From: an uncultured Caulobacteraceae bacterium
GTDB lineage: Bacteria; Pseudomonadota; Alphaproteobacteria; Caulobacterales; Caulobacteraceae
Direction: 5' to 3'
DNA length: 33,313 nt
Assembly: GCA_937890965.1 (NCBI GenBank)
Contig: CALAEG010000408.1
Coordinates: 1-33,313 of the forward strand
Position 1 is the stretch's first letter, and the number at the start of each line of letters is the position of its first letter. The notes beneath the pieces were generated by a model. The model was not told where the DNA came from. It worked only from the letters and a program-made list of their open reading frames with translations, and ran no database searches. This document shows positions 2,503 through 33,159 of the stretch, piece after piece. Position numbers and translations under genes: made by a program.

Positions 2503-3339
2503 ATGACCCCGCTCGTCATCGGCCTCATCCTCAGCGCGGCCCTGCTGCACGCCACCTGGAACGCCATTCTGCGCGGCGGCGCCGACCGGCTGTGGTCGAT
2601 CACCGTCATGTGCGCGACCTCGGCGGTCGTCGCCCTGCCCTTCCTGTTCCTTCTCGCCTTGCCGGCCCGGGTGAGCTGGCCCTGCATCGGGCTCTCGGCC
2701 GCCTTGCAGGTCAGCTACTGTCTCTTCCTGGTGCGCGCCTATCGCGAAGGCGAGTTGGCCCAGGTCTATCCGATCGCGCGCGGAACCTCCCCGCTCCTGG
2801 TGACCCTTGGCGCGGTCTTCGTCGCTGGCGAGCGGCTGACGCCGGCGGCCCTGGCCGGCGTGGCGCTGGTCTCGCTGGGCATCATGGCCCTGGCCTTCGA
2901 AAAGACGCGACCCAGCTTGCACTCGACCCTCTCCGCCCTAGCCACCGGGGTCTTCGTCGCCGCCTACACCCTCACCGACGGGGTTGGCGCGCGGCTGTCG
3001 GGCCATGCGCAGTCCTATACGGCCTGGCTCTTCCTGGTGCAGGGCGCGGCCATGCCCGTCGTCTATGTCGCCTTGCGCGGCCGGCTTGCCCTGCCGCTGA
3101 GAGCGGCGGAAACCTGGAAGGCGCTGGCCGGCGGCGTCTTCGGTCTCCTGTCCTACGGCGTGGTCATCTGGGCGCTGAGCCTGGCGCCCATGGGCCGGGT
3201 CTCGGCCTTGCGCGAGACCAGCATCCTGTTCGCCGCGGTGATCGGGGCGGTGTTCCTGAAGGAGAGGCTGACCCCGGCGCGGGTCACGGCCGCCCTGATG
3301 ATCGCCGGCGGCGCGATAGCGCTCTCAACCGCCCACTGA
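2503..3339 (+). CDS. EamA/DMT superfamily transporter
   Basis: 278 aa, about 10 hydrophobic segments, duplicated EamA-type architecture. Confidence 0.88.
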   Translation: MTPLVIGLILSAALLHATWNAILRGGADRLWSITVMCATSAVVALPFLFLLALPARVSWPCIGLSAALQVSYCLFLVRAYREGELAQVYPIARGTSPLLVTLGAVFVAGERLTPAALAGVALVSLGIMALAFEKTRPSLHSTLSALATGVFVAAYTLTDGVGARLSGHAQSYTAWLFLVQGAAMPVVYVALRGRLALPLRAAETWKALAGGVFGLLSYGVVIWALSLAPMGRVSALRETSILFAAVIGAVFLKERLTPARVTAALMIAGGAIALSTAH

Positions 3340-8340: not shown

Positions 8341-8344
8341 GGGG

Positions 8345-8475
8345 TTGAAAAAGCAAGGCCCGCCACGGGGGAATCATCGCGGCGGGCCCTTAGCCTCTTG
8401 AAGGTAGCGGGCGTTTCCTCCCCGAAACGCCGAGTCGCGCGGGCTCTGATGGCCCGTGTCGTCTCTCGCTAGGGA
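8345..8475 (-). ncRNA. Candidate structured 3'UTR or independent sRNA downstream of hisG
   Basis: Minus strand: hairpin GGGC/GCCC (8441-8444/8452-8455), perfect 8-bp hairpin GGCGTTTC-6nt-GAAACGCC (8410-8431), then terminator stem and T-run; TTGACA present upstream on the same strand (about 8490-8495). Confidence 0.35.
8348..8388 (-). terminator. Rho-independent terminator for the hisS-hisZ-hisG transcript
   Basis: Stem GGCCCGCC (8357-8364) / GGCGGGCC (8381-8388); TTTTT at 8348-8352 on the minus strand. Confidence 0.6.
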
Positions 8476-30073: not shown

Positions 30074-30129
30074 ATTACCTAGGCCAGCGGGAAGGTGAGG
30101 GTTACGGCCTCTCAGCCTTATCCTGAAGC

Positions 30130-30261
30130 GGCGTACGCCCGTCGAGAGCGCCACCGCGAGTTCCACTCGCGGGGATGCGTTCGCCAACGATTTGGCGAAC
30201 GCCGCTCTCGACCCTCCCACGCGCGAGGCGCGTGGGCCCCTCCTTCTCCCCACGGGAGAAG
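30130..30261. repeat. Compound palindromic intergenic element (potential three-way junction plus two hairpins)
   Basis: Outer GTCGAGAGCG/CGCTCTCGAC encloses CCGCGAGT-tcc-ACTCGCGG and GCGTTCGCCAA-cgat-TTGGCGAACGC; followed by CCCACGCGC-gag-GCGCGTGGG and CTTCTCCC-cac-GGGAGAAG. Confidence 0.7.
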
Positions 30262-30346
30262 TCTGGGAATGTCAGGCCATCGTGGCTGACCAGAATGCAG
30301 CAGGGCGCGTGACAACCGTCCTTCGCCCCTATATACGGCCCGTCCC

Positions 30347-30430
30347 ATGATCCTCGCCGCCAGCCAATTTTACTTTTGGTATTTCGGCTATCCGACGCCC
30401 CTGGCGCCGGCGGAGGATCGCTTGGCCTAA
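30347..30430 (+). CDS. Aromatic-amino-acid-rich leader peptide (27 aa) of DAHP synthase attenuator
   Basis: ATG...TAA encodes MILAASQFYFWYFGYPTPLAPAEDRLA; 7 of 8 consecutive residues (8-15) are Phe, Tyr or Trp. Confidence 0.88.
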   Translation: MILAASQFYFWYFGYPTPLAPAEDRLA

Positions 30431-30455
30431 CCCAACCCAAGCCGAACTTCCCGTC

Positions 30456-30482
30456 AGCCGCCAGGGTCCTGGCGGCTTTTTT
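30456..30482 (+). terminator. Attenuator terminator upstream of DAHP synthase
   Basis: AGCCGCCAGGGTCCTGGCGGCT stem-loop followed by a T-run (TTTTTT at 30477-30482). Confidence 0.9.
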
Positions 30483-30524: not shown

Positions 30525-31613
30525 ATGTCCCCCTCGACCGACGACCTTCGCATCGCCCGCCTGGAGATGCTCAGCCCGCCCTCCCAGGTGATCGGCGAGG
30601 CGCCGTCCAGCTTCATGATCGACGAAATGGTCGAGGGCGCGCGGGCCGCTGTGCACAACATCCTGCACGGCGACGACGACCGGCTGGTGGTTATCATCGG
30701 CCCCTGTTCGATCCACGACCCGAGGGCGGCGCTGGACTACGCGGGGCGGCTGGCGGAGATGCGGCGGCGGCACGAGGGCGAGCTGGAAATCCTCATGCGG
30801 GTCTATTTCGAAAAGCCGCGCACCACGGTGGGCTGGAAGGGGCTGATCAACGATCCGGGCCTGGACGGCGGCTTCCGCATCAATGACGGCCTGCGCCTGG
30901 CGCGCCGCGTGCTGCTCGACATCGCGGCGCTCGGCCTGCCGGCGGCCTGCGAATTCCTCGACGTGACCACCCCGCAGTACATCGCCGACCTGGTCGCCTG
31001 GGGCGCGATCGGGGCGCGCACCACCGAGAGCCAGATTCACCGCGAGATGGCGTCGGGCCTGTCCTGTCCGGTCGGGTTCAAGAACGGCACCAATGGAGAC
31101 GTGAAGATCGCCATCGACGCGGTGCTGGCGGCGCTCAACCCGCACCATTTCCTGGCGGTGAATAAGGATGGCCGCGCCGCCATCGCCACCACCCTTGGCA
31201 ATGACGACGCCCATATCGTTTTGCGCGGCGGGGTGACGCCCAACTATGACGCCGCCTCGGTCGCCGCCGCGGCCGCGGAGCTGGCCAAGGCCGGCCTGCC
31301 GCAGCGGCTGATGGTGGATGCGAGCCACGCCAACTCCCGCAAGCGGCACGAGAACCAGCCCGGCGTGATCGCCGACCTCTGCGCCCAGCTCGCCGGGGGC
31401 GAAGGCCGCATCATGGGGGTGATGGTCGAGAGCCACCTGCGCGCCGGCCGCCAGGACCTGGTCCCCGGCCGCCACCTCGCCTACGGCCAGTCGATCACCG
31501 ACGCCTGCATCGACTGGGAGACCTCGGTGACGGTGCTGGACGACCTGGCCGAAGCGGTGCGGGCGCGGCGCGAGCGGGCCCGCCGGCCAAGCGCGGCGGC
31601 GCTCGGGGCGTGA
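30525..31613 (+). CDS. aroG: 3-deoxy-7-phosphoheptulonate (DAHP) synthase, class I (AroF/G/H type)
   Basis: VVIIGPCSIHDPRAALDYA; LMRVYFEKPRTTVGWKGLINDPGLDGGFRINDGLR; WGAIGARTTESQIHREMASGLSCPVGFKNGTNG; VMVESHL. Confidence 0.96.
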   Translation: MSPSTDDLRIARLEMLSPPSQVIGEAPSSFMIDEMVEGARAAVHNILHGDDDRLVVIIGPCSIHDPRAALDYAGRLAEMRRRHEGELEILMRVYFEKPRTTVGWKGLINDPGLDGGFRINDGLRLARRVLLDIAALGLPAACEFLDVTTPQYIADLVAWGAIGARTTESQIHREMASGLSCPVGFKNGTNGDVKIAIDAVLAALNPHHFLAVNKDGRAAIATTLGNDDAHIVLRGGVTPNYDAASVAAAAAELAKAGLPQRLMVDASHANSRKRHENQPGVIADLCAQLAGGEGRIMGVMVESHLRAGRQDLVPGRHLAYGQSITDACIDWETSVTVLDDLAEAVRARRERARRPSAAALGA

Positions 31614-31629: not shown

Positions 31630-33159
31630 TCAGTCCGCCGCCATGGGCTCCGCCGAGGCCGGGATCTGGTCGGCGGGTTTGCGTAGCAGCAGCACCAGCG
31701 GGATGGCCGCGAGCGTGGCCAGGAACATGGCGTGGAAGACGTCGGTATAGGCGACCATGGAGGCCTGGCGGGTGACCTCGCCGTTCAGCGCCTCCATATT
31801 GGCCTGGCCGTTCAGCATGGGCGCGGCGATCGGATTGTCCGGCGTCAGGGTCTCGGTCAGCCGGGCGTGAACGATCGAGACGTTCTGCACGAAAACGGCC
31901 TGCATGATCGAGATGCCGGCGGCGTTGCCCAGGTTGCGGATCAGGGTGAAGACCCCGGTGCCGTCGCCGCGCAGATTGGGCGCCAGGGTGGCGAAGGCCA
32001 GCGTGGTCATGGGCAGGAAGATCAGACCCATGCCAAGGCCCTGCACGATCCCGGTCCAGATCATGGAGAAATAGCCCATCTGCAGGCTGAAATGGCTCAT
32101 GCCGAAGAAGGAGATGGCGAACAGCAGAAGGCCGGTGATGATCAGGAAACGCGTGTCGACCCGCCCCACCAGCCGACCGGCGAAGAACATCGAGACCAGG
32201 CTGCCGACCCCCCGCGGCGCCTGGATCAGGCCGGCGGTCATCACCGGGTAGCCCAGCAGGGTCTGGGTCATGCCGGGCAGGAGCGCCATCACCGAAAAGA
32301 CCAGCAATCCCACCGCCAGGCCAAGACCCGTCGCGGTGACGAAGTTGCGGTCCCTGAGCAGCTCGACCGGCAGGAAGGGCTTGTCGGTGGTGGCGCTATG
32401 AATGGCGAAGAGCACCAGGGCCAGGCCCGCCACCGCCGCCTCGATCATGATCTCGGTCGAGTGGAACCAGTCGTTGTTCTGGCCGCGGTCGAGGAAGAGC
32501 TGGAAGGAGGCCAGCATGAGCGAGAGCAGGGCGAAGCCCATGGCGTCGAATCGGAGCTTCTCGCCGTGCCGGCGCTCGTGCAGGAAGGTGGAGACGCCCA
32601 GGAAGCACAGGATGCCCACCGGCAGGTTGATGTAGAAGACCCAGCGCCAGCTGAAATTGTCGGTGAGCCAGCCGCCGAGCACCGGCCCGGCGATCGGCGC
32701 CACCATGATCCCCATGCTCCAGATGGCCATGATCGGGCCGCGTTCCTCAAGCGGATAGGCATCCAGCATCACCGCCTGCGATAGGGGCGCCATGGACGCG
32801 CCGAACGCGCCCTGCAGGATGCGGAAGATGACGATCTCCTGCAGGTTCTGCGCCGCCCCGCACATGGCCGAGGCGATGGTGAAGCCGACGATGGAGACCA
32901 GGAAGACCTGTTTGCGGCCGAACCGGCCGGCCAGCCAGCCGGTGGTCGGCGTCATGATCGCCGCGGCGATGATGTAGGAGGTTAGCACCCAGGTGATCTG
33001 GTCGCCCGAGGCCGAGACCGACCCGGCCATGTGCGGCAGGGCCACATTGGCGATGGTCTGGTCGAGCACCGTCATGATCATGGCCAGCATGATCGAGATC
33101 AGCACCATGGTCCGATTGGGCGCGGGCTCGACGACGGGCGCGGCGGCGATGGCGGTCAC
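31630..33159 (-). CDS. DHA2-family MFS multidrug exporter (EmrB/QacA type)
   Basis: MLAMIMTVLDQTIANVALPHMAGS; LTSYIIAAAIMTPTTGWLAGRFGRKQVF; about 14 TM segments. Confidence 0.92.
   Translation of the reverse strand: MTAIAAAPVVEPAPNRTMVLISIMLAMIMTVLDQTIANVALPHMAGSVSASGDQITWVLTSYIIAAAIMTPTTGWLAGRFGRKQVFLVSIVGFTIASAMCGAAQNLQEIVIFRILQGAFGASMAPLSQAVMLDAYPLEERGPIMAIWSMGIMVAPIAGPVLGGWLTDNFSWRWVFYINLPVGILCFLGVSTFLHERRHGEKLRFDAMGFALLSLMLASFQLFLDRGQNNDWFHSTEIMIEAAVAGLALVLFAIHSATTDKPFLPVELLRDRNFVTATGLGLAVGLLVFSVMALLPGMTQTLLGYPVMTAGLIQAPRGVGSLVSMFFAGRLVGRVDTRFLIITGLLLFAISFFGMSHFSLQMGYFSMIWTGIVQGLGMGLIFLPMTTLAFATLAPNLRGDGTGVFTLIRNLGNAAGISIMQAVFVQNVSIVHARLTETLTPDNPIAAPMLNGQANMEALNGEVTRQASMVAYTDVFHAMFLATLAAIPLVLLLRKPADQIPASAEPMAAD

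Follow-up and report, generated by a model that had tools for sequence, protein, structure and literature searches.

Attenuation ahead of a DAHP synthase gene has been described in Corynebacterium glutamicum, where the AroR leader precedes aroF. As cited in PMC11802643, Neshat et al. (2014) reportedly found a response of this attenuator to Phe and no response to Tyr; the same attenuator was also predicted in PMC4046766. The locus analyzed here resembles AroR-aroF in having an aromatic-codon leader (Phe-Tyr-Phe in C. glutamicum) directly before a DAHP synthase gene, and in both cases there are two DAHP synthases, a class II enzyme included. The two systems are likened by description alone, and they differ in that C. 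glutamicum is an actinobacterium, the response reported for it is to Phe only, and the citing account mentions no Trp codon. The trp leaders (E. coli trpL and Sinorhizobium meliloti trpL) share four-segment attenuation with the present locus, and S. meliloti trpL, which is a known leaderless RNA (PMC7298713), is also like the transcript start predicted here. In contrast to the present leader, however, the trp leaders contain Trp codons only, encode a shorter peptide, and have trpE as the target. The enterobacterial pheA and pheST leaders (Rfam RF01859, Phe_leader) likewise consist of an aromatic-codon leader followed by a choice between antiterminator and terminator, but they read Phe only and control another target gene. 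In E. coli ilvGMEDA and thrABC, too, a single leader contains codons for more than one end product of a branched pathway, although the codons there are branched-chain or Thr/Ile codons and the operons are different ones.

The features of our locus are listed in Table 1, with positions numbered in the window, which is the whole 33,313-nucleotide stretch of DNA from an uncultured Caulobacteraceae bacterium that was analyzed. The original prediction had placed a leader ORF, an intrinsic terminator, and the aroG start codon in this order, and the sequence, a terminator scan, and the NCBIfam assignment of the gene all agree with that layout. It had also described a run of seven aromatic codons in eight, specifying Phe, Tyr, and Trp. 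This run is present and is the only one of its kind: when all six frames of the 33-kb window were scanned (about 66,600 to 67,000 eight-codon windows), at least six aromatic codons in eight were found at the leader only. A search of the genome with the leader peptide returned one match, which is the leader itself.

Table 1. Features of the leader-aroG region, with positions in the window and the basis of each assignment
Feature	Position	Strand	Basis or detail
Candidate promoter, GTGACA (30309-30314) and TATATA (30330-30335)	30309-30335	+	Conservation
Leader peptide ORF, MILAASQFYFWYFGYPTPLAPAEDRLA	30347-30430	+	27 codons; ATG at 30347; stop TAA at 30428-30430
Segment 1, GCCGCCAGCC	30356-30365	+	Complementary to segment 2; duplex prediction
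Control codons F Y F W Y F G Y (codons 8-15)	30368-30391	+	TTT TAC TTT TGG TAT TTC GGC TAT
Segment 2, CCCCTGGCGCCGGCG, antiterminator 5' arm (codons 18-22, PLAPA)	30398-30412	+	Predicted fold, swap tests, frame-changed leaders
Intrinsic terminator	Hairpin 30456-30477, then TTTTTTG to 30483	+	Terminator scan; single hairpin, 9 pairs
Segment 3, GCCGCCAGGG	30457-30466	+	Common to antiterminator (2:3) and terminator (3:4)
Segment 4, CCTGGCGGC	30468-30476, with T tract TTTTTTG to 30483	+	Pairs with segment 3
aroG-type class I DAHP synthase, 362 aa (regulated gene)	30525-31613	+	ATG at 30525; NCBIfam, class I aroFGH
Transporter ORF, next likely gene after aroG	31630-33159	-	

The candidate promoter recurs in relatives. 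Of the 58 alphaproteobacterial loci (within L081 to L141) that have a called leader, 52 have the motif TGAC at a distance of 34 to 38 nt upstream of the leader ATG, and a TATA-like box is found near the leader ATG in many of the alphaproteobacterial loci. A strict sigma-70 scan scored no promoter at the window's leader. The spacing between the candidate promoter and the ATG suggests that transcription starts at about 30341 to 30347, a few bases from the ATG, and that the leader mRNA is therefore nearly leaderless. In Caulobacter, leaderless mRNAs are well established as a class (PMC4117421). The xanthomonad and comamonad loci also have a -10-like box close to the ATG, and in the Burkholderia loci the 5' end seems to be longer. 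Positions 30100 to 30270 of the window, which lie between the amidohydrolase-like ORF upstream and the promoter, form a GC-rich stretch with an inverted-repeat-like element (cgtcgagagcg ... cgctctcgac).

For comparison, AroG loci were gathered from the 80 best relatives in GTDB genomes, and from a 200-genome sample of Caulobacteraceae supplemented with 18 stretches; further loci came from samples of the class Alphaproteobacteria and of the phylum. The comparison of aroG upstream regions among relatives that the original prediction had called for found the aromatic codons and the terminator kept together in all 47 Caulobacteraceae loci, with 4 to 7 aromatic codons per 8 (e.g., MILAASQQLFWYFSYPTPLAPGGDRSA). 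In the class sample, 11 of the 13 other alphaproteobacterial AroGs have a dense leader. The run in Bradyrhizobium is SYFWYFSYDSSLAAGG. The two exceptions in the class sample are L138, in which the end of the contig cuts the locus within the leader, and L133, in which the leader (MNAARTLSARFYPRSIAGGIRGA, located some 250 nt before the AroG match) is degenerate, with segment 2 and the terminator kept and one Phe and one Tyr codon left. L133 is thus a possible case of loss of sensing. The leader is also found at most xanthomonad, burkholderiacean, oxalobacteracean, and comamonad AroG loci, with the runs SFYFWYYGFPMPLAEEG in xanthomonads, MSAKFYFYFFWHLRPLADREG in Burkholderia, FFTGYFYFS in Massilia and its relatives, and AYFFAFFWF in comamonads. 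Among the loci sampled, it is absent from AroG loci of enterobacteria, of vibrio-like and several other gammaproteobacterial families, and of Methylophilaceae and Rhodocyclaceae. Two Burkholderiaceae loci (L190 and L191) are second AroG copies without a leader in genomes that also have a leader-bearing copy, which suggests a division of labor between AroG isozymes.

A gene tree built from 165 AroG sequences (FastTree) was also used to examine the distribution; many of its forks are weak, and a few leader states, including that of L133, were assigned by hand. One clade of 76 AroGs, comprising alphaproteobacteria and xanthomonads, has the leader in 75 members, the exception being L138, and the leader label changes 12 times on the tree compared with 41 times in shuffles. 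Based on this clade distribution and on the number of changes, we conclude that the leader travels with the gene. Outside these groups, an AroG of Chloroflexota (Anaerolineae; locus L067, upstream of position 3001) has an aromatic leader beginning MSRYFSFFSWYGYFAAGQ..., followed by a different, GC-rich hairpin for which a T tract was not found; this leader is possibly convergent.

An upstream ORF with at least five aromatic codons in eight is found in 77% of the 125 AroG loci, which is a count of sequences and not of independent events since the loci are related, compared with 1.6% of dinucleotide shuffles. By the same measure, the controls from these 125 loci give 1.6% for the reverse complements and 2.8% for the 350 bp lying next upstream. 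A terminator is located past the aromatic run, usually 50 to 78 nt from the last aromatic codon, in 104 of the 107 loci with at least four such codons. The genome has hairpins of the form GCCGCCAG...CTGGCGGC at three further sites, as might be expected if a chance aromatic ORF happened to lie before the ordinary terminator of the upstream gene, but such a coincidence is contradicted by the conservation before aroG in relatives, by these chance rates, and by the swap tests described below, and we consider its probability negligible.

The two halves of the leader are conserved in different ways. In the Caulobacteraceae leaders, the core F-W-Y-F is retained through synonymous codon changes (TAT/TAC and TTT/TTC); W is present in 47 of 47, F and Y are nearly invariant, and the Tyr codons are TAT in 32 and TAC in 12. 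Six leaders (L111, L113, L121, L122, L124, and L126) have one extra base and encode SDAAGGG or SDALGGG instead of PTPLA, and in these same leaders the RNA GCCGCTGGCGGAGG is kept or nearly so. The synonymous changes in the aromatic run and the frame-changed segment 2 therefore indicate that the first half is read as codons and the second half as RNA, which is the prediction of attenuation and not that of a functional peptide. For the same reason we rejected a functional-peptide role for the conserved PTPLAP..DR.A half, since the frame-changed leaders scramble the peptide and keep the RNA.

This pattern also bears on two other roles for the peptide. Almost the whole peptide is conserved within Caulobacter-like genomes, as it might be in a nascent-peptide arrest sequence of the TnaC or SecM kind that senses a free aromatic amino acid or a pathway intermediate rather than tRNA charging. 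However, only the aromatic run is common between clades (FYFYFFW, FFTGYFYFS, SFYFWYYGF, and AYFFAFFWF), and the frame change alters the downstream peptide without loss of the RNA, so that we regard peptide arrest as highly improbable. An additional function in trans, like that of peTrpL/rnTrpL in S. meliloti, is likewise unlikely for the leader peptide or for the attenuated RNA once released. This alphaproteobacterial precedent involves a leaderless trpL RNA (PMC7298713), and the strong peptide conservation inside Caulobacter-like genomes would fit such an activity, but the conservation of the C-terminal half is already explained by segment 2.

The leader RNA has a four-segment anatomy of the trp type. 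Segment 2 lies 0 to 18 nt past the last aromatic codon and is a repeat of the terminator 3' arm, able to pair with the 5' arm. At one position of segment 3, the three segments 2/3/4 change together: among 76 distinct loci, the combination is T/A/T in 37 and C/G/C in 12. Within single Caulobacteraceae loci, 2:3 complementarity is mostly not beyond that of shuffles (z of -1.7 for the window) because the region is so GC-rich. Since single-locus shuffle tests are underpowered for this reason, partners were swapped between loci. Native 2:3 partners beat swapped partners in pairing energy (z of -3.8, with 1 of 10,000 permutations as good) and in a second, ungapped scoring (0 of 10,000 as good), the permutations ignoring kinship among loci, so that the exact probabilities are not literal. 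The 3:4 core is paired across clades, part of this pairing having been required by the search pattern itself. Complementarity of segments 1 and 2 has a mean z of about -1.5 relative to shuffles across loci, which is weaker evidence than that for 2:3. When RNAalifold was applied to the family alignment, the terminator hairpin was recovered and the 2:3 antiterminator helix was not.

By predicted folding, the whole leader RNA is more stable than 200 of 200 shuffles (z of -3.3), the span from segment 2 to segment 3 has an energy of -36.0 kcal/mol, and the 3:4 hairpin has an energy of -17.5 kcal/mol. With a stalled ribosome and the complete RNA, the equilibrium model slightly favors the terminator (-41.1 versus about -36 kcal/mol), so that the switch would have to be kinetic, as in known attenuators. 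Once segment 3 is out and segment 4 is not yet, the model favors the antiterminator (-36.0 versus about -23.6 kcal/mol, the latter being the -41.1 structure less the -17.5 terminator), and the order of synthesis would thus decide the outcome, as it does in classical attenuators.

The original claim that aroG is controlled by ribosome-mediated attenuation is strongly supported by this comparison: the aromatic codons, the terminator spacing, and the competing antiterminator segment are conserved, and the arrangement is absent in enterobacterial relatives. We conclude that the element is very probably a ribosome-mediated transcription attenuator of the class I (AroG) DAHP synthase. The mRNA, short and probably leaderless, would start at the leader ATG or immediately upstream of it. 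Under a shortage of charged tRNA-Phe, tRNA-Tyr, or tRNA-Trp, the first ribosome on the leader would stall in codons 8 to 13 and block 1:2 pairing, leaving segment 2 free to pair with the emerging segment 3; with 2:3 formed, the terminator could not form and aroG would be transcribed. When aromatics are plentiful, the ribosome would reach the stop codon, cover or just pass segment 2, and block 2:3, whereupon segment 3 would pair with segment 4 and transcription would end before aroG. If the leader is not translated, 1:2 and 3:4 would both form, again giving termination.

That one leader senses all three aromatics is a weaker claim than attenuation itself. In the best 10-codon window, F, Y, and W are all present in 68 of the 89 distinct leaders; 20 have only F and Y, and 1 has only F and W. 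The leaders that have no Trp or no Tyr codon would fit a real switch that senses mainly Phe or mainly Tyr, with the remaining aromatic codons carried along or used for fine tuning, and so would C. glutamicum AroR (FYF), for which the citing source reports a response to limitation of Phe and not of Tyr (PMC11802643). On the other hand, the invariance of Trp in all 47 Caulobacteraceae leaders argues against single-amino-acid sensing, as does the placement of the F, Y, and W codons 8 to 13, all of which lie where a stalled ribosome, by its presumed footprint, would free segment 2. We regard predominant sensing of one amino acid as a serious possibility that nonetheless falls short of an even chance. 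Our own fuller reading is held just as tentatively: a widespread, unreported attenuator that moves with AroG through alphaproteobacteria, xanthomonads, and several betaproteobacterial families may respond, in the manner of an OR gate, to a shortage of any of Phe, Tyr, and Trp, and so adjust a single DAHP synthase isozyme to the end product in short supply.

The original prediction had also spoken of a single DAHP synthase, and this part does not hold. A class II DAHP synthase is encoded in the window's genome as well (NCBIfam TIGR01358; G000:C165:6495-7811, positions 1489 to 2871 of locus L142), and its gene adjoins a glutathione-reductase-like ORF; in the sequence read at L142, an aromatic leader was not seen upstream of it. 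Since the class II enzyme coexists with AroG, the switch in the window's organism would govern a second isozyme. The class II enzyme is found in 72 of 72 alphaproteobacterial genomes tested, whether AroG is present or not, and attenuated AroG is found in about a quarter of the sampled Caulobacteraceae and in 14 of 387 genomes of the class. The sampled xanthomonads have both AroG and the class II enzyme, and the leader-bearing Burkholderiaceae and Oxalobacteraceae are without class II.

No family of Rfam 15 covers the leader at its gathering threshold, and with a relaxed E-value only subthreshold matches were obtained. Among these, Phe_leader (RF01859) scored 16.7 bits (E of 2.5) over the window's leader, far below its gathering score of 55 bits, and 23.7 bits in the Xanthomonas locus L002, also below 55. 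An antisense match to asX2 (Rfam; E of 1.6) was dropped, as the Xanthomonas loci do not match asX2 at the aroG leader, and a class-wide scan for TTYTGGTAYTTY gave background only. Elsewhere in the window, positions 8344 to 8467 on the minus strand give an above-threshold match (50 bits) to RF01527, the Caulobacter sRNA CrfA. In the open-access literature, to which the search was confined and which leaves subscription papers outside it, we found no report of a proteobacterial aroG leader. The type of attenuator is already known, with a DAHP synthase case in C. glutamicum; the proteobacterial aroG case appears to be new and, judging from the sequences compared, widespread. As Rfam 15 holds no family that covers it, the leader would also be a gain for annotation.

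DAHP synthase opens the shikimate pathway. In bacteria that lack TyrR and TrpR, which enterobacteria use, its tuning to three end products is usually attributed solely to enzyme feedback. A leader that contains codons for each of the three would be a concrete answer to how this enzyme is tuned in Caulobacter, Bradyrhizobium, Mesorhizobium, Xanthomonas, Burkholderia, and their relatives, and it would offer a natural case of several amino acids being weighed by a single switch based on ribosome stalling.
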